NCBI RefSeq assembly: GCF_022378355.1
Contig: NZ_JAKMAJ010000014.1
Coordinates: 1 to 64,000 of the forward strand
DNA length: 64,000 bases
Source of the DNA: Brenneria bubanii
GTDB taxonomy: Bacteria > Pseudomonadota > Gammaproteobacteria > Enterobacterales > Enterobacteriaceae
Direction: 5' to 3'
The notes under the pieces were generated by a model. The model was not told where the DNA came from. It did no database searches and saw only the letters and a list, made by a program, of their open reading frames with translations. The stretch's first letter is position 1. Each line of letters starts with the position of its first letter. The translations under genes were made by a program, and so were the position numbers. Positions 11,956-26,750 of the stretch are shown piece after piece.

Positions 11956-12978
11956 TCATTGGGATGCGCTGATAACGGTGATAGGCGCGGCGTCTGGCGC
12001 CGCCACAGCGTCAGAAACCGTCTTTAACGCCTCCTGGTAGCGGTTGATATCATGACCGACGTTAACCAATACCGGCATGCCGGAGCGGCGCACAATGGCA
12101 TCAGCAACCGCTTGGGCGTCCGTTTCCCCGGCATCGATAAATGCCTTGGCCTTTTTATTGATGCTAATCGGCATCGTCTGCGGGTCGTCTTTATCCGTTT
12201 TAGACAGCGGTTGATGAACCTCTACGTAGCGTTTGCCATCAGGCTCAACCGACGTTTTGATCGCATCATTGACAATCTGGACCCGCGTACCGACCGGAAC
12301 GGTATTGAACAAGGCTTCAATATCGTCAGGCCGCAACCGGATACAGCCAGAGCTGACGCGCATGCCGATACCGAAGTTCGCGTTGGTGCCATGGATCAGG
12401 TATACGCCGCCATGGGCCGCTAAGCGCAAAGCGAATAGTCCCATCGGGTTATCAGGTCCGGCTGGCACCACCGCCGGCAGCACCACGCCCTGCTCTTCCA
12501 GATAGTGTTTTCGGATATTGGCGGTCGGCGTCCAGGTAGGATTCGCGCGCTTCTCGGCAACCGAAGTCACCATTAACGGAGTTTTACGCCCCAGTTGACC
12601 AATGCCGATGGGATACACGATGACGGTGTTCTTTCCCTTGGGATAGTAGTAAAGCCGCAGTTCCGCCAGATTAACCACGACTCCCTCGCGCGGGGTATCC
12701 GGCAGCAGCATCTGAGTTGGGATGGTTAACGTCGTGCCGACCTTTGGCAGGTATGGGTCGGTGCCGGGATTGGCTTCCAGCATGCCTAATAAGCCGATTT
12801 TATGATCAGCGGCAATGGCTTCTAGCGGACGACCATCATTGGGGACGGTATAAGCGATGTTTTCGCCAATAAGGCGGCTATTCGGCGGCGGCAGAGGATA
12901 TTCAGTGGCGCAGGCCGCGCTGCTTGCCGCCAGATAGGTCGCGAATATCATACCAAGTAACGTTAACGCAGGTTTCAT
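11956..12978 (-). CDS. ldtE: L,D-transpeptidase (LdtE/YnhG type)
   Basis: 340 residues. A signal peptide (ends SSAACATEY) precedes a LysM-like region (about 40-95, AYTVPNDGRPLEAIAADHKI) and a YkuD catalytic domain with HGTNANFGIGMRVSSGCIRL, which holds the nucleophilic Cys. Enzymes of this group act in the periplasm, forming 3-3 peptidoglycan crosslinks or attaching Lpp. The start at 12978 is used because the signal peptide begins there (GGGA upstream), although the frame extends to 13071. E. coli ynhG occupies the same place between lpp and sufE, which supports LdtE. The paralogues LdtA-C cannot be excluded on sequence alone. Confidence 0.88.
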   Translation of the reverse strand: MKPALTLLGMIFATYLAASSAACATEYPLPPPNSRLIGENIAYTVPNDGRPLEAIAADHKIGLLGMLEANPGTDPYLPKVGTTLTIPTQMLLPDTPREGVVVNLAELRLYYYPKGKNTVIVYPIGIGQLGRKTPLMVTSVAEKRANPTWTPTANIRKHYLEEQGVVLPAVVPAGPDNPMGLFALRLAAHGGVYLIHGTNANFGIGMRVSSGCIRLRPDDIEALFNTVPVGTRVQIVNDAIKTSVEPDGKRYVEVHQPLSKTDKDDPQTMPISINKKAKAFIDAGETDAQAVADAIVRRSGMPVLVNVGHDINRYQEALKTVSDAVAAPDAAPITVISASQ

Positions 12979-13448
12979 GCTGGATTCCCTACTCGCTGCT
13001 GATACCCGATAGGTTTCAAGAAACTGGAGACGGCAACCAAATAACCGAACTTTGGTAAGCGCCGCCAACATAGTTGCGACTTGAAAATAATGGGCAGGTG
13101 TCGGTTTAAAACGATGCCAGGCGCTCTATTTAACAACCCGCATCATGCTCTGCTATATTAGCATCGGTGTAACAAAATAATATTTCATCGAAAAATCAAA
13201 CCATTGATATGCATTTCTACAACAGACAGAGTCAGAATAAAATTTAGCGAAAAAGAAATATACGGGACTAATTCCTAAATATCAGAACGTTAATTTATAT
13301 CCTCTTCATCATTATGGTTTACGTAATAAAAATGAAAGACATTTTAAAAACGCATTGCGTAATCATGATGGTATGGAGAATGAATACGGAGAGTTTTAGC
13401 GGAAAACGAAGATAAGGTTGCCGACGGCGCGCATACGCGCTGCCGTGA
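12979..13448. other. AT-rich intergenic region between ldtE and sufE
   Basis: About 470 bases with no acceptable open frame. It should contain the ldtE promoter (minus strand) near 13020-13190, but no clear -35/-10 pair was identified. No RNA gene was recognised. Confidence 0.5.
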
Positions 13449-13450
13449 TA

Positions 13451-13479
13451 AAAAAAACGCCAGACAATGAATCTGGCGC
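13451..13479 (-). terminator. suf operon terminator
   Basis: On the minus strand CGCCAGA-TTCATTG-TCTGGCG is followed by eight T residues, about 30 bases after the sufE stop. Confidence 0.88.
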
Positions 13480-13509
13480 TTGCATTCTTGAATGCATGAG
13501 CGAGGCGAA

Positions 13510-13926
13510 CTAGGCCAACTGCTGCGCCTTTGTACGAATCGCCCGCAGCATCGCTTCCAGCCCCTGAGAACGGGACGGCGTCAAATGTTGGCTCAACGCC
13601 AACTCATGAAAGAAAGGGCGAACATCCAGTTCGACCATCGCCTGCGCGGTCAATCCTTGATAGAGACTGAACACCACGGCAATCAATCCCTTCACAATAG
13701 CGGCATCGCTGTCGCCATGCAGCGCGACCAATCCCCGATCGTCATGCTTTACCACAATCCACACCTGGCTCTGGCAACCGGCAACCAGGTTTTCCGCCTG
13801 GCGCCACGCGTCAGGCAGCGGCGCCAGGCGAGCGCCCAGTTCTATGATATAAAGGTATTTTTCTTCCCAGTTATGACAACGCGAAAAATTACGTACTAAT
13901 TTCTGCGGATCCGGCAGACTTGCCAT
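13510..13926 (-). CDS. sufE: cysteine desulfuration protein SufE
   Basis: 138 residues, the family length. It accepts persulfide sulfur from SufS at Cys51 ([11 protein letters not shown], counted here as residue 51) and passes it to the SufBCD scaffold. The start at 13926 (MASLPDP) has an ideal GGGAGGA 5 bases upstream. It is the last gene of sufABCDSE, 31 bases after sufS. Confidence 0.97.
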
Positions 13927-13957
13927 TTTTTCCTCCCCAGGCAACAAAACTGGCGTT

Positions 13958-15181
13958 TTAGTTGCCCAGCAATCGATGAACACGTTGCAACCCGGCAACC
14001 AGCCGGTCAATTTCTTCGCGCGTAGTATAAACCGCCAGCGAGGCGCGGCACATACTGGAAACACGATAGTGCTCCATCAGCGGCATCGCGCAGTGATGGC
14101 CGGTGCGAATTGCAATGCCATATTGATCGAGGAAACTGCCGACATCATAGGCGTGATGCCGCCCAAGGTTAAAGGCAATAACCCCATGACGTTCTGCCGG
14201 TCCATAGAGGATTAAGTCAGGCACCTGCGCCAATGCGTCCAGCGCATAGTCCATTAGCGAACTTTCATATTGCTGAATCGCTTCTCGCCCCAACTCCGTT
14301 ACATAACTCAGCGCCGCGCCCAGCCCCATGATCCCGGCGGTATTCGGCGAACCGGCTTCAAAACGCCACGGCGCATCGGCAAAGGTGGTGCCGTTGCGGA
14401 GACTCACCTCGCGGATCATCGCCCCGCCGCCTTCCCACGGCGGCATCGCCTGCAGCAGCTTACTTTTGCCGTACAGCACGCCAATCCCTGAAGGACCATA
14501 AATCTTGTGGCCGGAAAAAACGTAAAAGTCGCAGTCCAGCGCCTGCACATCGACCGGCTGGTGCATTATCGCCTGCGCGCCATCCACCAGAACAAGTACG
14601 CCGGCGGCTTTGGCCTGCGCGATAATCGCTTTGACCGGATTCAACGTGCCTAAAACGTTTGAAATATGGGTCACCGCCAGCAGCCGAGTACGCTCATCCA
14701 GCAGTGCCGGAAGCTGGCTCAAATCCAGCGAGCCGTCCGACGCCAGCGGCAACACGCGAATTTCGATACCCCGTTCTTTCGCCAGCATCTGCCAGGGAAC
14801 GATATTGGCATGATGCTCCATTTCGGTAATCACCAGATTGTCGCCGGGCTTAATGAAGGATCGTCCGTAGCTGTTCGCCACCAAATTGATGGCCTCCGTG
14901 GCGCCGCGCACAAAAACAATCTCTTCCGCTGAGGCGGCGTTAATGAAGGCGGCAACCTGTTGGCGTACCGACTCCATGGCGCTGGTCGCCTGCGCGCTCA
15001 GCGTATGAATGCCGCGGTGCACGGCCGCATATTCATGCCGGTAGAACGCCAGCTCGCGATCGATCACCGCTTGCGGTTTCTGCGCACTGGCGGCGCTGTC
15101 CAGATAGGCCAGCGGCTGACCGTTCACGTCTGTCGCCAGCAGAGGAAAATCGGCTCTAACCCGTTCGATTGGATAGCTCAT
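13958..15181 (-). CDS. sufS: cysteine desulfurase SufS
   Basis: 407 residues, a group II PLP-dependent desulfurase. It releases sulfur from cysteine for Fe-S assembly in the cytoplasm. The PLP lysine is in [11 protein letters not shown], the catalytic cysteine in [11 protein letters not shown], and [11 protein letters not shown] is also present. The start codon overlaps the sufD stop (ATGA), indicating translational coupling. Confidence 0.97.
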
Positions 15182-16515
15182 AGCTCTCCCTTCAATAGAT
15201 CCGCCCGCGCATTCGGCAGACGCTGCGCGATGCGTGTCAATATCGCGTCTCGTAATGACTCGTCGGCAATGGCTTCGGTCAATTCAGCGGCAAAAGCAAA
15301 GATGATCATCTGCCGGGCGTCATGCAGGGTAATCCCTCGGGAACGCAGATAGAACAACTGCTCTTCATCGATGCGGCCGATGGTGGCGCCGTGGCTGCAC
15401 TTCACATCGTCGGCATAAATTTCCAACTGCGGCTTGGTGTCGACTTCCGCCAGCCGCCCCAACAGCAGATTGTTGTTAGTCATCTGACCATCGGTTTTCA
15501 GCGCATGCTGAGCGACCTTTATCATACCGTTAAATACGGCTTTCGCCCGATCGTTGACGATGGTTTTATGCAGCTGTCGGCTTTCTCCGTAACCCTGGTT
15601 GTGTTCCAGATAGGTGCGGGTATCGCAAACCTCGCTGCCGATTGGCATGATGAGGCTATTGATCGCCAGATTCGTGCCCTCGCCATTGAGCTGAGCGCTG
15701 GTGTGATGGCGGGTCAGCCCCGCGCCCAGCAAAAATGACTGGCTGTGAACCCGCGCATCGCGCGCCAGCACCACATCATTATGCGAAAAGTGATAACCAG
15801 CCGCCGCTTCAAACGCCAGCTTCAAATGGCCGATGTGGCTGTTTTCCCCGGCATCGATCGTCAGCCGTGCGCCGGTGAAGTGCGCATGATCGTTCAGGCT
15901 GACATAGTGTTCGATAATTTGCGCGCTGGCACCGCGCTCAACGCACAGATGGTGACGATAATGAACGGTATTCAACGATGCCGCCTGACCGCTGCTGATG
16001 TGCAACAGATACAGCGGCTTTTCCGCCTGCACGCCGGCGGCCAGACGAATCAGCGAGCGTTCAACGGCCAGACTTTCCGTCAGGTGCAAAAACACCTCCG
16101 GCCGCACTGCCGCGGGAAACGGCCCCTGATTATTCGTCGCGTTGAGCGCCACCTGATAAGGCCCCCACTCGACGTCGCTCAGCGCCGCGCTGAACTCGCC
16201 GTCGACGAACACCAGACGCCAACCGTCAATTGGCAGCGCCAGCGCATCCAATGCCGCGTTGTCTACCTGCGGCGCGTCGGCGGAGACGAACTCATGAGAC
16301 AGCAACCCATCGAGCGGCGTATATTTCCAGTGCTCGTCCTTACGCTGAGGCAATCCCAAGCGCAGTACTTCCTGCCAATGTTGATGTGAGTCGGCTGAAC
16401 GTCTGGCGCTGTGGGTTTCAAACAGATTGTGCCATTGCTGCAAGGCCTGTTCCTGTTTCTGCGCCGCGCTGATTTTATCGGCGCCTGCTTTATTGTTGGT
16501 CGGTAAGCCAGCCAT
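15178..16515 (-). CDS. sufD: Fe-S cluster assembly protein SufD
   Basis: 445 residues, slightly longer than E. coli SufD because of N-terminal residues. It partners SufB and SufC in the SufBC2D scaffold. The conserved [11 protein letters not shown] motif, with its Cys and His, lies in the last quarter. The start lies inside sufC (26-base overlap) and the stop overlaps sufS. A start further downstream would remove the overlap, but no better ribosome binding site was seen. Confidence 0.96.
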
Positions 16516-17236
16516 AACCTTGCTCCTCCAACTGTTTCACCAGCGAGAAGTCACCGGATTTAACGATGCGCCCCTGGTAAAGAACATGAACGTAATCAGG
16601 CTTGATGTAGTCCAGAATACGCTGGTAGTGCGTCACGATAATAAACGACCGCTGCTGGTCGCGCAGCGAGTTAACACCATTGGCGACGATCTTCAGCGCA
16701 TCGATATCCAAACCGGAATCGGTTTCATCAAGAATGCATAAATCCGGCTCAAGCGCCGCCATTTGCAGAATGTCGTTACGCTTCTTTTCACCGCCGGAAA
16801 AACCGACATTGACCGAGCGCGTCAGCAGATCAGCCGGCATATTCAGCAGTTTGATCTTATCTTCGATAAAATCGGCGAAGTCAAAGCGATCCATCGGCTC
16901 TAGCTGGCGATATTTGCGCACCGCATTGACCGCGGTTTGCAGAAAAAACTGGTTGCTGACGCCGGGGATCTCCACCGGATACTGAAACGCCATGAAGATG
17001 CCCTCGCCGGCGCGATCCTCAGGAGCCAACTCCAGCAAGTCCTTGCCTTTAAAACGCACCGAACCTTCGGTGACTTCATATTCCTCGCGCCCGGCCAGCG
17101 TGGCGGAGAGCGTGCTTTTCCCGGAGCCGTTCGGCCCCATGATGGCATGGACTTCTCCAGGCTTAACCTCAAGGTTGAGTCCCTTGATAATCGCTTTGCC
17201 GTCTATGCTGACTTTCAAATTTTCAATACTTAACAT
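16490..17236 (-). CDS. sufC: Fe-S assembly ATPase SufC
   Basis: 248 residues of ABC-type ATPase. Walker A is GPNGSGKST, the signature is FSGGEKKR, and Walker B is LCILDETDSGLD. It is soluble and drives conformational change of the SufB/SufD scaffold. AAGGA lies 7 bases before the ATG. A 78-base gap separates it from sufB. Confidence 0.97.
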   Translation of the reverse strand: MLSIENLKVSIDGKAIIKGLNLEVKPGEVHAIMGPNGSGKSTLSATLAGREEYEVTEGSVRFKGKDLLELAPEDRAGEGIFMAFQYPVEIPGVSNQFFLQTAVNAVRKYRQLEPMDRFDFADFIEDKIKLLNMPADLLTRSVNVGFSGGEKKRNDILQMAALEPDLCILDETDSGLDIDALKIVANGVNSLRDQQRSFIIVTHYQRILDYIKPDYVHVLYQGRIVKSGDFSLVKQLEEQGYGWLTDQQ

Positions 17237-17314
17237 GTTCTATCCTTCAGGCGTCCCGCACCTTGTGACGCTCATCATTTTCGTGACCGATAAAAAACAT
17301 CGGCAACCGGCGAA

Positions 17315-18811
17315 TTAACCCACACTGTGTTCCAGGCTAATCGCCAGTAACTTTTGCGCCTCTACCGCGAACTCCAGCGGTAGCTCAGAGAACACATCTT
17401 TACAGAATCCGTTGACGATCATTGAGATAGCATCATCTTCGCTGATGCCCCGCTGTAGACAATAAAACAGCTGGTCCTCACCGATCTTCGACGTGGTCGC
17501 CTCATGTTCCAACTGCGCGCTATTATTGCGGACTTCCACATATGGGAAGGTATGTGCGCCGCAATCGCTGCCGATCAGCATTGAGTCGCACTGGGTGAAA
17601 TTACGGGCGTTAGTCGCGCTCGGCATAATCTTCACCAGCCCGCGATAGGTGTTTTCGCTGTGCCCGGCGGAGATCCCCTTGGCGATAATGGTCGAACGGG
17701 TATTTTTGCCGATATGGATCATCTTGGTTCCGGTATCCGCCTGCTGATAACCATTGGTCAACGCGACTGAGAAAAACTCGCCGACCGAGTTGTCGCCGCG
17801 CAAAATCACGCTGGGGTATTTCCAGGTGATGGCCGAGCCGGTTTCCGACTGCGTCCATGACATTTTCGCATGCTCGCCGGCGCAAAGCGCCCGCTTGGTC
17901 ACGAAGTTCAGGATCCCGCCTTCCGCTTCCGTACCGGCAAACCAGTTTTGCACGGTGGAATATTTAACTTCGGCGTTTTTATTGATGATCACTTCAACCA
18001 CGGCGGCATGAAGCTGATAGCTGTCACGTACCGGGGCGGAGCACCCTTCGATATAGCTGACGTAACTGTCATCATCGGCAATCAGGATCGTGCGTTCAAA
18101 CTGACCGGTTTTCGCCGCATTAATGCGAAAATAGGTAGACAGTTCCATTGGGCAACGCACCCCTTTAGGCACATAGACGAAAGTGCCGTCGGAGGCGACC
18201 GCGGCATTCAGCGCCGCAAAGAAATTGTCGTTAGATGGCACCACGGACCCGAGATATTGCCGGACCAAATCAGGATGTTCCTGGATGGCTTCGCTGAACG
18301 AACAAAAAATGATGCCCTGCTCCGCCAGTTCATGCCGATAGGTGGTGGCCACGGAAACGGAGTCAAAAATCGCATCCACCGCAACCGCTTCCCCTTCGCG
18401 CACCGGCACGCCAAGCTGATTAAACGCATTTTCAACTTCGCTGGTCAGGTAGTTGTTTACCTCCGTTACCCCTGACTGCTGGGTTGCGCCCGGCTGAGAA
18501 CCGCAGTTGTCGTCGCAGTGCCCGCAAGAAGGTGCGGAATAATAGCTATAGTCCTGATAGTCGAGCGATTGATACTTGGCCTTTAGCCAGTGAGGCTCTT
18601 CCATTTCCAACCATGCGCGATACGCGTTGAGCCGGAACGCCAGCATCCACTCGGGTTCATTACGTTTCGCTGAAATCGCCCGGACCACGTCTTCATTGAT
18701 GCCGTGCGCCAGCTCGTCCGTCGCCAGTTCAGTGAAGAAGCCCTCTTTGTAGCGGCCATCACCCATCCAGATCTGAACATCGTCAGGTACTTCTACTGTG
18801 CTACGTGCCAT
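17315..18811 (-). CDS. sufB: Fe-S cluster assembly scaffold SufB
   Basis: 498 residues (495 in E. coli). It assembles the nascent cluster with SufC and SufD. The cysteine corresponding to E. coli Cys405 is present in NFTQCDSML, and the functional glutamate in LEHEATTS is also kept. The N-terminal [10 protein letters not shown] cluster of cysteines is present. One cysteine kept in E. coli (YVECRNN) is valine here (YVEVRNN), so that residue is dispensable in this lineage. The gene lies 13 bases after sufA. Confidence 0.97.
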
Positions 18812-18824
18812 AATTTTTCATCAC

Positions 18825-19196
18825 TTAAATGCCAAAGCTCTCGCCACATCCACAGGCATGCTGAGCTTTGGGATTATTGAATTTGAACACCTGATTCAGC
18901 CCTTCGCGGACAAAATCGAGCTCGGTGCCATCGATAAAAGGCATCGCCTTTAACGGTACAAAAAGTTTCGCGCCATCGTGTTCGAATAGCAGGTCATCCG
19001 CAGCACGCTCTCGCACCAGATCCAGAACATAAGCAAATCCTGCGCAGCCGGATTGTTTAACGCTGAGTTGTAAACCTTCCACTGCGCCATCCTGCTGCAT
19101 TAAATTTTTTATTTGCTTTGCTGCGCTATCCGTTAGCGTCAAACCTTGCCAGACATTTTCCTCAAGTGAAAAAGTCCCTACATTTTCCGTCTGCAT
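18825..19196 (-). CDS. sufA: A-type Fe-S carrier SufA
   Basis: 123 residues. It carries Fe-S clusters to apo-proteins using three conserved cysteines: one in QSGCAGFAY and two in HACGCGESFGI at the C-terminus. The start at 19196 has GAGGT 7 bases upstream and matches the E. coli N-terminal region. The frame extends to 19277 but without family similarity. It is the first gene of the suf operon, which in relatives is activated by OxyR/IscR and repressed by Fur. Confidence 0.96.
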   Translation of the reverse strand: MQTENVGTFSLEENVWQGLTLTDSAAKQIKNLMQQDGAVEGLQLSVKQSGCAGFAYVLDLVRERAADDLLFEHDGAKLFVPLKAMPFIDGTELDFVREGLNQVFKFNNPKAQHACGCGESFGI

Positions 19197-19628
19197 ACGG
19201 CATACCTCATTACGTGTGGTACCAGTTTCAGGCTGGTTTCCCCTAATGTTAGTGATAATGTGCCTAGCTTCAACCACTTGCTTCGCAGGGCTATTCTTAA
19301 CATTTCGTTGTTAATGGCGTCCGGCGGCGTCGCCGGAGGTTACTTTCCGGCCCAAAACAAGAGTGAATTCAAGATACAATCAATTGATAAATAATCATAA
19401 AAGTGGATTTACCCGAAAATTCGGCCTGCATAAAAATCTTCAAATTATTATCATTACTTTAACATATATAGGGAACACCTATTTATAAAACAGGGGCAGT
19501 AAATGAAGATTTAATCTTTATACCTGCAAAGATGATAGCCAGTCCTCGTCGATGGCCTCGGGAGACGTTGCTGACGCGACGTTAAAAACGGCCCAAAAAG
19601 TTTTTATCGTTAACCTTTCTTTTGCCCA
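19197..19628. other. sufA upstream region
   Basis: About 430 bases without a gene between sufA and the divergent 133-residue reading frame. It must contain the suf promoter and regulator sites. The only site I can point to is the Fur-like box at 19443-19460. No OxyR or IHF site could be placed with confidence. Confidence 0.45.
19443..19460 (-). promoter_or_regulatory. candidate Fur box upstream of suf
   Basis: The minus strand reads AAGTAATGATAATAATTT, sharing most of the TAATGATAAT core with the Fur consensus. It lies about 245 bases upstream of sufA, farther than expected for a repressor of that promoter. The promoter may be distant, or the site may serve the opposite strand. Confidence 0.4.
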
Positions 19629-19669
19629 TTGATCCCGACATATTTTATAAATATGATAATGATTATCAT
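19629..19669 (+). promoter_or_regulatory. promoter overlapped by a near-perfect Fur operator
   Basis: TTGATC (-35, 19629-19634), 17 bases, TATGAT (-10, 19652-19657). Bases 19653-19669 read ATGATAAT-G-ATTATCAT, a perfect palindrome matching the Fur box core. A repressor bound there would cover the -10 element. It drives the reading frame starting at 19690. Confidence 0.8.
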
Positions 19670-19689
19670 TAATATTAAAGGGCGGTACC

Positions 19690-20091
19690 ATGCTTTCCGT
19701 GAATGCCTGGCTGCAACATCAGATTGACGAATATAAATTTCAAATCAGGGACGCCACCGTCGATTTCTACATGGCTGAGGCTCGCCTGAATCGGCCGGAA
19801 AGCCACATTGACCATCTGAGACGCTACCACAACGCCTGTATGGAAATGGTCGATTTATGTCTGAGAAACGGGGACGACGGCAGCTATCTGCATGCATTGA
19901 CAAAACTGCATAACCGACTGATTAAGGAAATAAATAATGAAAATCGCTGTCATCTATTCCGAGTACAGAGCTACTATTTCGCACGCAATACGCTCAAGAG
20001 TATTTGTCATCAGTTAAGCATGCAGGGTGCATGGGACGAGGCCACCGCATTCCAAACGGATTTCGTCATGCGCGTGCCTTTCCTGCCATGA
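19690..20091 (+). CDS. Fur-regulated protein of unknown function, 133 aa
   Basis: 133 residues with no signal peptide or membrane segment, rich in His, Tyr and charged residues (YMAEARLNRPESHIDHLRRY, LHALTKLHNRLIKEINNEN). It looks like a soluble helical cytoplasmic protein. I do not recognise the family. The start has AAGGG upstream, and the promoter contains a perfect Fur palindrome, so expression should rise in iron starvation. It sits between the suf operon, whose genes make Fe-S clusters under iron stress, and menI. His and Cys residues (HNACMEMVDLC, CHLF, ICHQL) could bind metal or haem, but this is speculation. Confidence 0.75.
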   Translation: MLSVNAWLQHQIDEYKFQIRDATVDFYMAEARLNRPESHIDHLRRYHNACMEMVDLCLRNGDDGSYLHALTKLHNRLIKEINNENRCHLFRVQSYYFARNTLKSICHQLSMQGAWDEATAFQTDFVMRVPFLP

Positions 20092-20238
20092 CGCCTTACC
20101 ACAGTGAAATAGACGCAGTGGACATCGCCTCGTCTACCGATGCCGACAGGTGAATATGATGCTATTAAGTATAGCAGGCGATAACGGCGAAACCGACCCG
20201 GCCGCAACCTGCTGCCCGATCGGTTTCAAGGCTAAGGA

Positions 20239-20655
20239 CTAAGGCGTGATGACCGACGTGGTCAGCCGGGATGAGCAACACTGCCGACCGCCGGCGTCGT
20301 AGATATCGATCTGCCAAACCTGATGACGCAGCCCGACGTGCAGAGCGCTGCATACGCCGCGAACTTCCCCCTCGGCGACGGCGCGCAGATGATTGGCGTT
20401 GACCTCTATGCCAACCACCTGCTGTTCTCCTTCGGTACACAAATACCCGGCCACCGACCCCAGCGACTCAGCCAAAACAACGGACGCGCCGCCATGCAAA
20501 AAACCGAAAGGCTGGCGTGTGCGGGCATCCACCGGCATCACCGCTTCCAGACGCGCTTCCGTCAGCTTGGTGAAACGGATGCCCAGATGCGCGATCATGC
20601 AACCCTGAACCTGCTGGTTAAGTTGTTCGAGCGTCAGACGCCGTTTCCACTGCAT
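20239..20655 (-). CDS. menI: 1,4-dihydroxy-2-naphthoyl-CoA hydrolase (YdiI)
   Basis: 138 residues with a hot-dog thioesterase fold. It releases dihydroxynaphthoate from CoA in menaquinone synthesis. The family motif QPFGFLHGGASVVLAESLGS is present with the active-site Glu, and GEQQVVGIEVNANHLR matches E. coli YdiI closely. The ATG shares a base with the ydiJ stop (TGATG), so the two genes are translationally coupled, as in E. coli. Confidence 0.95.
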   Translation of the reverse strand: MQWKRRLTLEQLNQQVQGCMIAHLGIRFTKLTEARLEAVMPVDARTRQPFGFLHGGASVVLAESLGSVAGYLCTEGEQQVVGIEVNANHLRAVAEGEVRGVCSALHVGLRHQVWQIDIYDAGGRQCCSSRLTTSVITP

Positions 20656-23600
20656 CAGATTATCTCCAGTAAAACCTGTAGCGGATGGCGCAGCCCCCGG
20701 CCCTCCATCCTTTTTACCTGGCTACGGCAGGAGTAGCCGGTTGTCAGACAGCGCGCCTGCGGTAAGCTCTGCAACGCCTGTTGCCAGGACAGCGCATAAA
20801 TCCCCTGTGAATTAGCCAGATTGTTGATTTCATGGCCGTAGGTGCCCGCCATGCCGCAGCAGCCGACGTTGACGTTTTCCAGTCGGGCGCCGAAACGGGA
20901 AAAAATCTCAGCCCACTGCCGGCTGCTGGCCGGCAAGGCGGTGCTTTCCGTACAGTGTCCCAGCAGATACCAGGATTCGCCGGTAGCAGCCTGCGGCGCT
21001 TGTGGCGCCGGCAGCGTCGTCAGCCACTCATGCACCAGCAGCACCTTGAATTCGCCGCGTTTATCCCCCAGTATTTCGCGATATTCATCGCGATAACACA
21101 ACACCAGCGCCGGGTCGACTCCCACCATCGGCATGCCCAACGTCGCCACGCGATTAAGAAAATCCGCGGTTTTCGCCGCCGTCCTGGCGAAGCTGTTCAA
21201 AAAGCCTTTGATGTGCTGCGCCTTGCCGTTCGGCGAGAATGGCAGCAGTACCGGTTTCAGCTTCAGTTTCTCGACCAGATGGATAAAATCAGCCACCACC
21301 TGCGCATCGTAATAACTGGTAAATGGATCCTGCACGATCAGCACATATTGCCGGCGTTCCTGTTCGGACAACTTTTCCAGCTGTTCCAGCGTTGTTTTGG
21401 CCGCGCTGTGCCCGACAAGCTGCTGACGCAGCGACGGAGAAGAAAGCAGCGGCAGATCGACCATCCCAATTCGCCGGCGGCTCAGCGCATTCACCCAGGG
21501 CATTTTCAAGAAGAAGTTAAAGGTTTTGGGACTGCGCGCCATCAGCGGGGCATAGCTTTCCACCCCCGCCACCAGATAATCCCTCAGCGGGCGTAAATAC
21601 CGGGTGTGGTACAGTTGTAAAAAACGCGAGCGAAAACTGGGCACGTCGATTTTGATCGGGCATTGCGTCGAGCAGGCTTTACAGGCCAGACAGCCGGACA
21701 TCGATGCTTTGACCTCATGGGAAAAATCATATTCCCCCCGGCTGGCATGCCAGGTGTTGCCGACCTTCTGAATAAACGCCCGCAGGCTGAGCTTCTGCTC
21801 CGGTAGTTTTTTCTCCAGCTCCAGCGGATCGACGCCCTGCTCCGCCAGTAACCGCAGCCATTCACGAACCAGCGTCGCCCGGCCTTTCGGCGAGTGAATG
21901 CGGTTGCCGGTAATTTTCATCGACGGACACATTGGGCTACGGGCGTCGAAATTGAAACATAAGCCATTGCCGTTACAATCCAGCGCGCCGCGAAAAGAGG
22001 CGCGAACCGCCAGAGGAATGGTGCGGTCATAGGTACCGCGCTTAACGGCATCCACCTTCATCATCGGCGCATCCACGCCCAGCGGCGCGCAGATTTTACC
22101 CGGGTTCAGGCGGTTATCGGGATCAAACGCGGCCTTGATGCGCCGTAACTCCATGTACAGCTCAGGACCAAAAAATTCGGGGCTGTATTCGGCGCGAAAT
22201 CCTTTACCGTGCTCCCCCCATAGCAGACCGCCGTATTTCGCCGTTAACGCGACGATATTATCGGAAAGCCGTTTCATCAGTATTTCCTGCTGGGGATCGC
22301 ACATATCCAGCGCCGGACGCACGTGCAGAACCCCCGCATCCACATGGCCGAACATACCGTAAGCCAGATTGTGGCTATCGAGCAATTCGCGAAATTCGGC
22401 GATATAATCCGCCAGATGCTGCGGCGGCACGCAGGTATCTTCGGCGAACGGAATCGGTTTAGCCTGCCCTTTGCTGTTTCCCAACAGACCGACCGCTTTT
22501 TTACGCATGGCGTAAATCCGCTCGATGCCGTCCAGGTCGTTGCAGGTTTGATAGCCAATCACGCCCGTTTGCCCCTCAGACATCAGCAGATTCAGCCGTT
22601 CACACAGCGTGCCGACCTGCTCATTGATCAACGCCTCGTCATTGCCGGCGAACTCGACAATGTTCAACCCCAGCATATCCTTATCGGGCACATCGGTGAT
22701 GAGCTCGCTGACGGAATGCCAGACGATATCTTCACGCGCCAGATTCAATACGCGGGAATCCACGGTTTCGACCGACAACGCCTGCGCTTCCACCATAAAC
22801 GGCGCGTTACGCAAAGCGGAATTGAACGAGTCATACTTCACGTTAACCAGGCGCCGTACTTTAGGCAGCGGAGTGATATCAAGCTTAGCCTCGGTGATAA
22901 ACGCCAGCGTCCCTTCCGCGCCGGTGAGAATCCGCGTCAAATCGAAGGTTTGCAGATCGTCGCTAAAGACATGACGCAGGTCATAGCCGGTCAGGAAACG
23001 ATTAAGCTTGGGAAAGTGGTCCAAAATAAGCTGCCGCTGCTCGCGACAACGATTTAACACCGTCTGGTAAACCTGGCCGACCCTGGAGTCTTCTCGCGCC
23101 AGCTGTTCCGCCAACGCCACCGGCATCGACTGGGTATCCAGCAGCTCGCCGCCGATCAACAGCGCGCGCAGCCCCAACACGTGATCGGAGGTTTTGCCAT
23201 ATACCAGCGAGCCCTGACCTGACGCGTCGGTGTTGACCATGCCGCCCAGCGTCGCGCGGTTACTGGTGGACAATTCCGGCGCAAAAAAATAGCCGAAAGG
23301 CTTAAGGTATTGGTTTAGCTGGTCTTTGATCACACCAGCCTCTACTCTGACCCAGCCCTGTTCCAGATTGATATCCAGGATACGATTCATATAGCGGGAC
23401 ATATCAACCACAATGCCCCGGTTGAGAGCCTGACCGTTAGTGCCGGTGCCGCCGCCTCGGGGGGTGAATGTCAGGCTATCAAAGCGTTGTTCCGCGGCCA
23501 GCCGGGTCAAAATCGCGACGTCTGCGGTGGAACGGGGAAAAACGACGGCATCCGGCAACAGTTGATAGATGCTGTTATCCGTCGCCATGGTCAGACGATC

Positions 23601-23708
23601 GGCATAGTTTGTCGCCGTGTCGCCCGTAAAACCGTTTTGTTTCAGTGCTTCCAAAAAATCAAGTACCGGCTGAACGAGGCCGGGTGACTGTGAGATCTGT
23701 GGGATCAT
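20655..23708 (-). CDS. ydiJ: FAD/Fe-S D-2-hydroxyacid (D-2-hydroxyglutarate) dehydrogenase YdiJ
   Basis: 1017 residues (1018 in E. coli), highly similar throughout. The N-terminal FAD-binding domain has FTPRGGGTGTNGQALN and ELSTSNRATLGGMVNTDASGQGS. An FAD-oxidase C domain follows (about 230-560). A 4Fe-4S segment GCLACKACSTQCPIK lies near residue 665, and a C-terminal CCG-type domain has VGCCGMAGTYGHE. It oxidises D-2-hydroxyglutarate and related acids, passing electrons onward. The start at 23708 (MIPQISQ) follows E. coli. The frame extends 8 codons further upstream. Confidence 0.96.
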   Translation of the reverse strand: MIPQISQSPGLVQPVLDFLEALKQNGFTGDTATNYADRLTMATDNSIYQLLPDAVVFPRSTADVAILTRLAAEQRFDSLTFTPRGGGTGTNGQALNRGIVVDMSRYMNRILDINLEQGWVRVEAGVIKDQLNQYLKPFGYFFAPELSTSNRATLGGMVNTDASGQGSLVYGKTSDHVLGLRALLIGGELLDTQSMPVALAEQLAREDSRVGQVYQTVLNRCREQRQLILDHFPKLNRFLTGYDLRHVFSDDLQTFDLTRILTGAEGTLAFITEAKLDITPLPKVRRLVNVKYDSFNSALRNAPFMVEAQALSVETVDSRVLNLAREDIVWHSVSELITDVPDKDMLGLNIVEFAGNDEALINEQVGTLCERLNLLMSEGQTGVIGYQTCNDLDGIERIYAMRKKAVGLLGNSKGQAKPIPFAEDTCVPPQHLADYIAEFRELLDSHNLAYGMFGHVDAGVLHVRPALDMCDPQQEILMKRLSDNIVALTAKYGGLLWGEHGKGFRAEYSPEFFGPELYMELRRIKAAFDPDNRLNPGKICAPLGVDAPMMKVDAVKRGTYDRTIPLAVRASFRGALDCNGNGLCFNFDARSPMCPSMKITGNRIHSPKGRATLVREWLRLLAEQGVDPLELEKKLPEQKLSLRAFIQKVGNTWHASRGEYDFSHEVKASMSGCLACKACSTQCPIKIDVPSFRSRFLQLYHTRYLRPLRDYLVAGVESYAPLMARSPKTFNFFLKMPWVNALSRRRIGMVDLPLLSSPSLRQQLVGHSAAKTTLEQLEKLSEQERRQYVLIVQDPFTSYYDAQVVADFIHLVEKLKLKPVLLPFSPNGKAQHIKGFLNSFARTAAKTADFLNRVATLGMPMVGVDPALVLCYRDEYREILGDKRGEFKVLLVHEWLTTLPAPQAPQAATGESWYLLGHCTESTALPASSRQWAEIFSRFGARLENVNVGCCGMAGTYGHEINNLANSQGIYALSWQQALQSLPQARCLTTGYSCRSQVKRMEGRGLRHPLQVLLEII

Positions 23709-24060
23709 TATTTTTTGACCCTGTCTATACAAGATGTGTTTGCCAATATCAATATGATGTTAGATGTCTGAGGATGAAGCGATTTATGCCCTATATCTTG
23801 AAATATATGGAGAATAATTCATCGGTTTTTTGTTTATTCAACCAGCAGACTGATCACGTTTTATCACATTTTCCGCTACCGTGTCGCCGAATCGGGAAAA
23901 AACGTATTGAGTATTGGCTTTGCGCTCTTTACACCAACAAAATGTTTAACAGGCTATCAAAAACCACAGAAATATCTCATGATAAATCATCGCCGTTTCA
24001 TCGCCTTGCCAAAACGGCGCGGCTTTCAAACCGGTGTCTACTTAATAGAGGTACTATCCG
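23709..24060. other. intergenic region between divergent ydiJ and ydiK
   Basis: 352 bases with no gene or RNA that I recognise. It should hold both divergent promoters. AT-rich stretches near 23790-23960 are compatible with that, but no clear elements could be assigned. Confidence 0.4.
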
Positions 24061-25170
24061 TTGATAAAAAAAATCCAACAACAGCATTTTGACCTGGCCA
24101 GAATATTATTCAGCTTGCTGTTTATCACCATTATGATCATCGCCTGTTTTTGGGTAGTTCAGCCGTTTATTCTAGGGTTCGCCTGGGCCAGCATGGTAGT
24201 GATTGCAACCTGGCCTTTATTGATCAAGCTTCAGCATCTATTGTGGGGGCGTCGTTCTCTGGCCGTGTTTGCCATGACGTTACTCCTGATTCTGCTGTTC
24301 GTGATGCCGATTGCCGTACTGGTCAGCAGCGCTATCGATAACAGCTCGGCCTTGATGAGCTGGGGAGCCAGTCAGGAAAATTTCTCTCCGCCCAAACTGG
24401 AATGGTTAACCTCCATTCCGATGGTCGGGGATAAATTATTCAATAGCTGGCAGACTCTGTTGCAAAGCGGCGGCAGCGGCCTGTTTGCCAAAGTTCAGCC
24501 CTATGTGGGGAAAACCGCAACCTGGCTGGTCGCTCAGGCGGCGCACGTTGGCCGTTTTCTAATGCACTGCGCCTTGATGCTGGTCTTCAGCGCGCTGCTT
24601 TACTACAAAGGTGAATCCGTCGCCAAAGCGGTGCGCCATTTTGCTATCCGCCTCGGTCATGAACGAGGCGACACCGCCGTGATTCTGGCGGCGCAATCGA
24701 TTCGCGCAGTGGCGCTGGGCGTGGTCGTAACCGCCATTGTGCAGTCTCTGCTGGGCGGCATTGGCCTGCTCATTTCCGGCATTCCCTATACCACATTGCT
24801 CACCGTACTGATGTTTCTATGCTGCCTGGTGCAGTTGGGGCCGCTTCCTATATTGGTCCCGGCGATTATCTGGCTTTACTGGAGCGGGGACACCACCTGG
24901 GGAACGGTGCTGGTGGTGGTGAGCTGCGTGGTGGGGACGATAGATAACTTCATTCGCCCGGTGCTTATCCGTCTTGGCGCCGACCTGCCGCTGCTGTTGA
25001 TCCTGTGCGGAGTTATCGGCGGGTTACTGGCTTTCGGCATGATTGGTTTGTTTATTGGACCGGTGGTGCTTGCCGTCTCTTATCGTCTGCTGTACGCCTG
25101 GATGGAGGAAACCCCGGAACCCCAGGCCATCGCCGAAGAGCCTCTTAATCCGAATGCCGGCAAAGAATGA
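24061..25170 (+). CDS. ydiK: AI-2E-family inner-membrane protein YdiK
   Basis: 369 residues with about eight membrane helices and the family's C-terminal block (GADLPLLLILCGVIGGLLAFGMIGLFIGPV). It is closely similar to E. coli YdiK (VVQPFILGFAWASMVVIATWP). The family contains putative exporters and ion/H+ antiporters; the YdiK substrate is unknown. The start is TTG with GAGGT 8 bases upstream, because no ATG occurs before the first membrane helix. A short acidic tail ends the protein. The small RNA gene rprA lies downstream, as in E. coli. Confidence 0.9.
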   Translation: MIKKIQQQHFDLARILFSLLFITIMIIACFWVVQPFILGFAWASMVVIATWPLLIKLQHLLWGRRSLAVFAMTLLLILLFVMPIAVLVSSAIDNSSALMSWGASQENFSPPKLEWLTSIPMVGDKLFNSWQTLLQSGGSGLFAKVQPYVGKTATWLVAQAAHVGRFLMHCALMLVFSALLYYKGESVAKAVRHFAIRLGHERGDTAVILAAQSIRAVALGVVVTAIVQSLLGGIGLLISGIPYTTLLTVLMFLCCLVQLGPLPILVPAIIWLYWSGDTTWGTVLVVVSCVVGTIDNFIRPVLIRLGADLPLLLILCGVIGGLLAFGMIGLFIGPVVLAVSYRLLYAWMEETPEPQAIAEEPLNPNAGKE

Positions 25171-25256
25171 TTGCGTTTTCATTCTGTCTATCGCCGCGAG
25201 AGAAATATTTCGCGGCGTTTAAATGATAAATAAAATTAATGTATAAGATCGTTTTT

Positions 25257-25271
25257 TAGGGATTATTCTTA
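25257..25271. promoter_or_regulatory. RcsB-box-like palindrome (distal)
   Basis: TAGGGATTATTCTTA is a dyad resembling the RcsB recognition sequence. It lies about 145 bases upstream of the inferred rprA start. It is the second such dyad in this gap and is less symmetric than the proximal one. Confidence 0.4.
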
Positions 25272-25360
25272 AGTAATCTCGCTTTCCTAGGGTTATTTGG
25301 TTAATTTTATTAAAATCCCAGCGATACATCTTAATAAATCCTTTAAAAACAATTAACTAT

Positions 25361-25374
25361 TAGGATGATTCCTA
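25361..25374 (+). promoter_or_regulatory. RcsB box of rprA
   Basis: TAGGATGATTCCTA is a near-perfect dyad of the RcsB type, centred about 35 bases upstream of the inferred transcription start (near 25403). A possible -10 GAATAT is at 25391-25396. In E. coli rprA is the best-known RcsB-activated small RNA gene, so the placement fits. Confidence 0.65.
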
Positions 25375-25402
25375 ATGACTGTTCCCGGCAGAATATCTAG
25401 CA

Positions 25403-25519
25403 TGTTCTACAGAGCTGGTCTTAACCTTTTTGTTAGTCAACTAAGGTTTCCTCCTCGTCAGAGTTAGTAACGAATTGCTGTGTGTAGTCTTTGCCCATCC
25501 CCTGAGATGGGCTTTTTTT
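25403..25519 (+). ncRNA. rprA: RprA small regulatory RNA
   Basis: The 3' part matches my recollection of E. coli RprA almost exactly: AACGAATTGCTGTGTGTAG, TCTTTGCCCATC, and the terminator hairpin GCCCATC-CCCTGA-GATGGGC with seven T residues. Synteny (downstream of ydiK) agrees. RprA is an Hfq-dependent RNA that activates rpoS translation and represses other mRNAs under Rcs control. The 5' half here (25403-25465) does not resemble the E. coli 5' half, so the exact start is inferred from the -10 element and is approximate. Confidence 0.85.
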
Positions 25520-25709
25520 ATGCCCCGCTTCGCGCCGTCGCCAACAAAGTTTGCCGGCCAGAAATTGCGGTCAGCCATGTTTTTGTTAATCTTCTGTTTG
25601 TGTTTCTTCGACTTTGCTTTATATCTTTCTTCTGCCGGATTGCGGCGGGTTTCACGCCCTGCGTTTTCAAATCCATTGATTATATTGGCTTCATTCTCAG
25701 GAGTTTTGC

Positions 25710-26750
25710 ATGGCTAATCTCGCCAGGGGATTGATACTCGGGTTACTAACCAGCCTGATTGCAGGTTGTGATAACGCCCCCCAGACCAACCATCTTCCGC
25801 TCATGTCCATCGAGGGTAAAACCATGGGCACCTTTTACAGCGTAAAAATCAGCGGTGAACCACAGGAAAACAAACAACAGCTTCAGCAGGAGATCGATGC
25901 CCTGCTGGAACAGGCGAATAACGAGATATCCACCTATCGTCAAGATTCGACGCTATCGAAATTCAACCAATACCGCGGCAACGATGCGCAACCCATTAGC
26001 AACGGCATGGCGGATATCATCATGACGGCGCAGCGTATCGGCCGGGCGACAGGCGGCGCAATGGATATCACCGTGGGGCCGTTGGTCAACCTGTGGGGGT
26101 TTGGTCCGCAGAAACAACCGACGCAAATCCCCAGTCAGCAGCAAATTGATCAAGCCAGGCAAATGATCGGGCTCCGCCATCTGAAATTAATCAGCGACGG
26201 TCGGGGTGAATGGATTCAGAAAGATCTGCCCGAGCTGTATGTCGACCTGTCAACCCTGGGCGAGGGCTATGGCGCCGATCTGCTTGCGCAACTGATGGCC
26301 AGGAAAGGCATAACCAATTATCTGGTTTCCGTCGGCGGAGCGATATCCAGCCGCGGAGTCAACGCAGAGGGAATGCCGTGGCGTGTGGCTATCCAGAAGC
26401 CGACCGATCGGGAAAACGCCATGCAGGCGGCGGTCAATCTGCAGGGATATGCCATCAGCACATCAGGAAGCTACCGCAATTACTTTGAGCAAAACGGCCA
26501 ACGCTATTCTCATGTAATCGATCCGACGACCGGAAAGCCCATCACGCATCAGCTGGTCTCCGTCACCGTCATCGCGCCAAGCGCGCTCGAGGCCGACGGC
26601 TGGGATACAGGGCTCATGGTCTTAGGGCAAGAAAAGGCTTTAAAACTGGCGGAGCAGAAAGGGCTGGCCGTTTATCTGATCGTTAAAACCGATAACGGTT
26701 TCCAGGCGGAAATGACGCCTCAGTTCCAGTCATTTTTGATCGCGCAATAG
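25710..26750 (+). CDS. apbE: FAD:protein FMN transferase (ApbE), lipoprotein
   Basis: 346 residues. A lipoprotein signal ends at LTSLIAGC, placing it in the periplasm on a lipid anchor. It covalently attaches FMN to threonines of target flavoproteins such as NqrB/NqrC and RnfG. Motifs are GKTMGTFYSV, GGAMDITVGPLVNLWGFGP, DLSTLGEGYGAD and YSHVIDPTTGKP with the metal-binding residues. The gene stands alone between rprA and ppsA, with a hairpin terminator downstream. Confidence 0.94.
   Translation: MANLARGLILGLLTSLIAGCDNAPQTNHLPLMSIEGKTMGTFYSVKISGEPQENKQQLQQEIDALLEQANNEISTYRQDSTLSKFNQYRGNDAQPISNGMADIIMTAQRIGRATGGAMDITVGPLVNLWGFGPQKQPTQIPSQQQIDQARQMIGLRHLKLISDGRGEWIQKDLPELYVDLSTLGEGYGADLLAQLMARKGITNYLVSVGGAISSRGVNAEGMPWRVAIQKPTDRENAMQAAVNLQGYAISTSGSYRNYFEQNGQRYSHVIDPTTGKPITHQLVSVTVIAPSALEADGWDTGLMVLGQEKALKLAEQKGLAVYLIVKTDNGFQAEMTPQFQSFLIAQ

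Follow-up and report, generated by a model that had tools for sequence, protein, structure and literature searches.

A conserved gene beneath a Fur palindrome beside the suf genes of Brenneria bubanii, encoding a predicted helical protein of a nameless family

The stretch of DNA analysed here, the window, consists of 64,000 nucleotides of Brenneria bubanii (contig NZ_JAKMAJ010000014.1 of assembly GCF_022378355.1). It contains an open reading frame (ORF), ORF 19690–20091, which lies head to head with the suf genes and is preceded by a palindromic Fur box. ORF 19690–20091 is a genuine protein-coding gene, and sequence comparison gives good support for placing its family, nameless in the searched libraries, in the Fur regulon. 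The gene and its control region are composed of the following elements:

19629–19657, forward strand: sigma-70-type promoter, TTGATC and TATGAT separated by 17 bases; match to consensus at chance level, hexamers recurring in relatives
19653–19669, no strand: Fur palindrome ATGATAATGATTATCAT, overlapping the -10 element, with its 15-base core at 19654–19668
19678–19683, forward strand: purine-rich ribosome-binding region AAGGGC before the ATG, from sequence reading
19690–20091, forward strand: ORF for a 133-residue protein, predicted to be cytosolic and all-helical, whose family has no model in Pfam or NCBIfam; supported by homologs, selection and structure models

The promoter hexamers are located at 19629–19634 and 19652–19657, upstream of the ATG at 19690. 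Taken alone, such a promoter-like pattern is at chance level, with two in the window versus a mean of 2.5 in shuffled sequences; the same hexamers recur upstream of the Pectobacterium and Serratia copies. The 17-base palindrome is symmetric at every position except the central base, which is unmatched because a palindrome of odd length cannot match its own middle. An earlier note on this DNA had described this promoter as overlapped by a perfect Fur palindrome, and the reading of 19629–19669 agrees with it, the central base aside. Searches were performed with the core TGATAATNATTATCA, which we take to be the heptad-repeat Fur consensus. The site at 19653–19669 is the sole zero-mismatch match in the window and one of only three in the 4.89 Mb genome, where 63 sites with up to two mismatches are found versus eight for the reversed pattern. 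The second perfect site adjoins ABC-transporter genes resembling those for metal or iron uptake, and the third is located upstream of an mntH-like gene (all named from their translations). The site is also kept upstream of the copies in relatives, and its description as a strong Fur site holds.

Within its GTDB family, the protein has matches in 79 of the 392 genomes searched, spread over 27 of the 154 genera, one per genome, including at least four broken or partial copies: two degraded (G446 and G561), one with a single internal stop (G687) and one 60-residue remnant (G742). Named carriers are Brenneria, Pectobacterium, Samsonia, Symbiopectobacterium, Serratia, Ewingella, Erwinia and Dickeya. 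Across the order, 15 of 394 genomes match, 12 of them in the same GTDB family; the three matches outside this family (f1), with E-values of 0.002 to 0.0075 (L068–L071), are to unrelated longer proteins or a short ORF and were dropped as chance. Neither the plasmids nor the viral contigs searched contain a relative. Conservation among relatives, which the earlier note had named as a point to check, is accompanied by purifying selection: between the window copy and those of three near relatives (L002, L003 and L020), non-synonymous divergence (dN) is 0.042–0.063 and synonymous divergence (dS) 1.0–2.2, giving dN/dS ratios of 0.03–0.04, two of the five pairs run having been dropped for saturated dS. 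For 13 pairs not involving the window copy (17 run, two saturated), the ratio ranges from about 0.01 to 0.19, with the maximum for L091 and L095.

Some copies in Symbiopectobacterium (genus g23) are damaged: L036 and L077, probably the same genome in two collections, contain an internal stop, and L056 has lost the 5' half of the gene. The contig JADMXW010000002.1 (L034) is titled Serratia marcescens, but its copy of the gene clusters with Symbiopectobacterium, and so does its genome (G031, genus g23), so that the title may be wrong.

The Fur box was surveyed upstream of 106 loci (L001–L110 minus four chance matches), which span 54 of the 79 genomes and 40 named contigs, the two sets overlapping. 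Among 84 distinct 100-base upstream regions, broken copies included, 66 contain a perfect 15-base core, and 11, four, one and two contain a core with one, two, three and five mismatches, respectively; the two-mismatch site counted for L056 is really the box on the sufA side. When five broken copies are dropped, 80 distinct regions upstream of open copies are left, 65 of them with a perfect core and 11, three and one with one, two and three mismatches. At most one mismatch is thus found in 76 of 80 regions, which are not independent because near relatives share ancestry, and in none of 4000 dinucleotide shuffles. Many loci contain a second, separate Fur-like site about 40 to 60 bases from the sufA ATG, which is where the perfect K-12 site of E. 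coli lies; in the window strain (19197–19300), as in some other Brenneria, this site has more than four mismatches. The Ewingella copy and ones like it have an intact TATGATA-like -10 element and, about ten bases further on, the Fur box; the elements can thus be separated, and each has been retained. In L096 and L097 (genus g159), where the frame is degraded, the Fur box is lost (five mismatches) and the sufA-side box is retained. Judged by these comparisons, the box belongs to ORF 19690–20091 and not to sufA, and a response of the gene to iron is strongly predicted. The gene resembles Fur-repressed enterobacterial iron-starvation genes in its promoter-overlapping, heptad-repeat Fur box. It differs from them in that no transporter, siderophore enzyme, ferredoxin or known regulator can be recognised in its product.

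The protein has a pI of 6.7, and its most hydrophobic stretch of 19 residues averages just 0.29, in agreement with the soluble product proposed in the earlier note. That this product is not recognised also stands: no match above the curated cut-offs was obtained in Pfam, NCBIfam, PHROGs (best E-value 0.2) or PADLOC (searched with the window protein only). Two sub-threshold matches, to ASPP2-like_RA (seven of 16 members, best E-value 0.011) and DUF5799 (L095, E-value 0.015), were treated as chance. Sequence searches of the PDB gave best E-values of 0.29, 0.098 and 0.1, and none of the viral structures matched at an E-value of 0.001. The AlphaFold model contains five helices, with a pLDDT of 94.6. 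Like the helical-repeat (TPR-like) proteins HAP40, BtubC, SNAP and Rap, it is predicted to have stacked helices over about 100–110 residues, a likeness within the range that chance gives for helical proteins. Unlike TPR proteins, it shows no TPR sequence signature: no Pfam TPR model is matched at an E-value of 1 by the 16 members of A1 or by L091, L093, L095 and L016, and TOM70 in NCBIfam is matched by one of 16 members only, with an E-value of 0.13.

Control by Fur would suit a protein that binds iron, haem or an iron-sulphur cluster directly, for trafficking or scavenging, and three potential ligands are well conserved among 69 distinct proteins: His74 is invariant (69 of 69), Cys57 is present in 64 and Cys106 in 66, the remainder having serine. 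Against this, there is no invariant cysteine and no second invariant histidine in the 69 proteins, no CxxC motif in the window protein and no natural haem protein among the structure matches listed, where designed metal-induced helical assemblies do appear. A direct binder is thus unlikely, and haem handling, suggested in the earlier note, is unsupported by the conserved residues.

The neighbouring genes are arranged as follows:

18825–19196, reverse strand: sufA, divergent neighbour, with a homology-supported ATG at 19196; a positional neighbour that ORF 19690–20091 does not require
beyond sufA to about 13510, reverse strand: sufB, sufC, sufD, sufS and sufE
20239–20655, reverse strand: ydiI/menI-like thioesterase gene, convergent neighbour, in the same order as menI–ydiJ in E. 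coli K-12
20655–23732: ydiJ, next after the ydiI/menI-like gene

The head-to-head arrangement with suf is as the earlier note had it, with 493 bases between the sufA ATG and the ORF; a GTG at 19277 begins an upstream extension of the sufA frame, and homology backs the ATG. The same divergent sufA is found upstream of the gene in 54 of 56 loci, and in several groups, for example Serratia, the gene and sufA each have their own Fur box. Both observations would fit a protein that assists or regulates the Suf pathway, encoded divergently so that it and Suf respond to iron. However, in the 17 loci that were read, the gene is located upstream of ydiJ, usually with ydiI in between, both with and without suf on the other side; where suf is missing, its place is taken by pykF or an L,D-transpeptidase-like gene (named from translations), as beyond suf in K-12. 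SufB was searched for in 12 carriers, nine of them chosen because their locus lacks suf or because they share a genus with such carriers, so that the counts give no rate. It was found in the three control carriers with suf (G000, G713 and G720) and not in the other nine (G023, G485, G534, G586, G655, G679, G714, G737 and G759), which belong to three genera and Dickeya oryzae (G759) and of which eight are listed as 100% complete. Seven of the nine (all except G485 and G679) were read at the locus (L016, L055 and L091–L095), and each has an open frame and a Fur box with zero to three mismatches. A search for SufC was uninformative, as other ABC ATPases match. E. coli K-12 presents the reverse case, with suf present and the gene absent.

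Because the gene and its Fur box persist in genomes without detected SufB, the functional tie to suf proposed earlier is not supported; the link is positional, and the nearness would follow from vertical inheritance of the gene at a single place upstream of ydiJ. A role in the Suf pathway is largely refuted and we regard it as quite improbable. SufB is missing in several lineages (G023, G759, g198 and g246), so that this locus may have lost suf repeatedly. In L105, the gene and ydiI are separated by two genes whose translations suggest a cytochrome bd oxidase pair.

The interval between sufA and menI in E. coli K-12 contains rydB and ydiH, and the contents of the slot do differ there, as the earlier note had supposed. 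YdiH occupies the same chromosomal slot but is unlike our protein: it has 62 residues, is transcribed towards sufA and shows no detectable relation. A search of the K-12 gap for a relic of the gene gave nothing significant (hmmsearch with --max on 40 six-frame pieces); the best piece was the YdiH frame itself, with 1.6 bits and an E-value of 0.61. Even with up to four mismatches allowed, the stretch between ydiH and menI contains no Fur-like site. Of the 392 genomes, 92 have a ydiH match and 79 a match to the ORF family, with only one genome (G679) in common when the listings were compared by eye; its ydiH match is weak (E-value 8e-4) and at another place. This exclusion is not evidence of shared function, because shared clade ancestry explains much of it.

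As a further alternative, the protein could be related to the FCD ligand-binding domain of GntR regulators and, standing on its own, serve as a metabolite sensor. One protein, L091, matches the GntR-type regulator model TIGR03338 with an E-value of 0.0073, treated as chance and seen in one of 15 members; profile comparison sets the GDD...LH stretch in the FCD register, and the profile of 69 proteins scores 16.05, above all 20 column-shuffled controls (best 15.23). The A2 profile scores just 14.85, though, and hhalign probabilities are 0.67–1.35% in local and lower in global mode, a similarity that is too weak. What we take to be the FCD metal ligands are not kept in the family beyond one histidine, which also counts against the relation; FCD structures do not occur among the structure matches listed, which excludes nothing. 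We consider this alternative very improbable. That the transcript rather than the protein is functional, as a Fur-regulated RNA, would suit a short, Fur-controlled gene standing alone, but is extremely unlikely given the strong codon-level purifying selection and the lack of an Rfam family at the locus at gathering score.

The explanation we lean towards, with some reserve, is a Fur-repressed cytosolic helical adaptor with a partner outside Suf. ORF 19690–20091 would belong to the Fur regulon, being repressed by Fe-Fur in iron-replete cells and switched on by the loss of Fe-Fur. Its product is predicted to be soluble, with five helices in a TPR-like shape, no recognised enzyme motif and no conserved cluster of metal ligands. 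In iron starvation it would bind a partner protein via its conserved surfaces and change the activity, location or stability of this partner, which would lie outside the Suf machinery. The adaptor role itself is a reasoned guess. Two observations call for caution. The resemblance of the model to helical-repeat proteins is of a degree that can arise by chance among helical proteins. In addition, protein and Fur site appear to have diverged in parallel in one branch, some of whose genomes have no suf: compared with the window protein, the copies of L055 (Dickeya oryzae), L098 and L099 show only 50–56% identity while their YdiJ is 81–84% identical, against 68% and 79% for Ewingella, and the Fur boxes of L016, L055, L098, L099 and L103 have one to three mismatches. 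The profile searches and structure prediction suggested in the earlier note have led to a five-helix model and no clear match to a known family.

Fur regulons have been characterised best in E. coli-like species. In Serratia and several plant-associated genera, a conserved family that lies under a Fur box close to the consensus and is absent from E. coli K-12 is a candidate for a missing piece of the iron response. A bolder possibility, which we hold to be doubtful, is that this is a new family of Fur-controlled adaptors which, in iron starvation, bind a partner and so reprogramme a process that depends on iron, a protein counterpart of iron-sparing by small RNAs. It would have been inherited on the side of Pectobacterium, Serratia and Erwinia, whereas the E. 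coli side lacks it and has ydiH in the slot. The suf-less carriers already indicate where a partner should not be sought, and the small, soluble protein, present as a single copy per matched genome, is amenable to direct tests. The open-licence literature, searched without locus tags and including passages of PMC9239193, PMC3735044 and PMC8262890, gave no paper that names or describes the gene, and an earlier mention is quite possible.

Elsewhere in the window, an Rfam scan of positions 12000–26000 found RprA alone: the small RNA is matched at 25409–25522 on the forward strand, with 74.6 bits versus a gathering score of 70.
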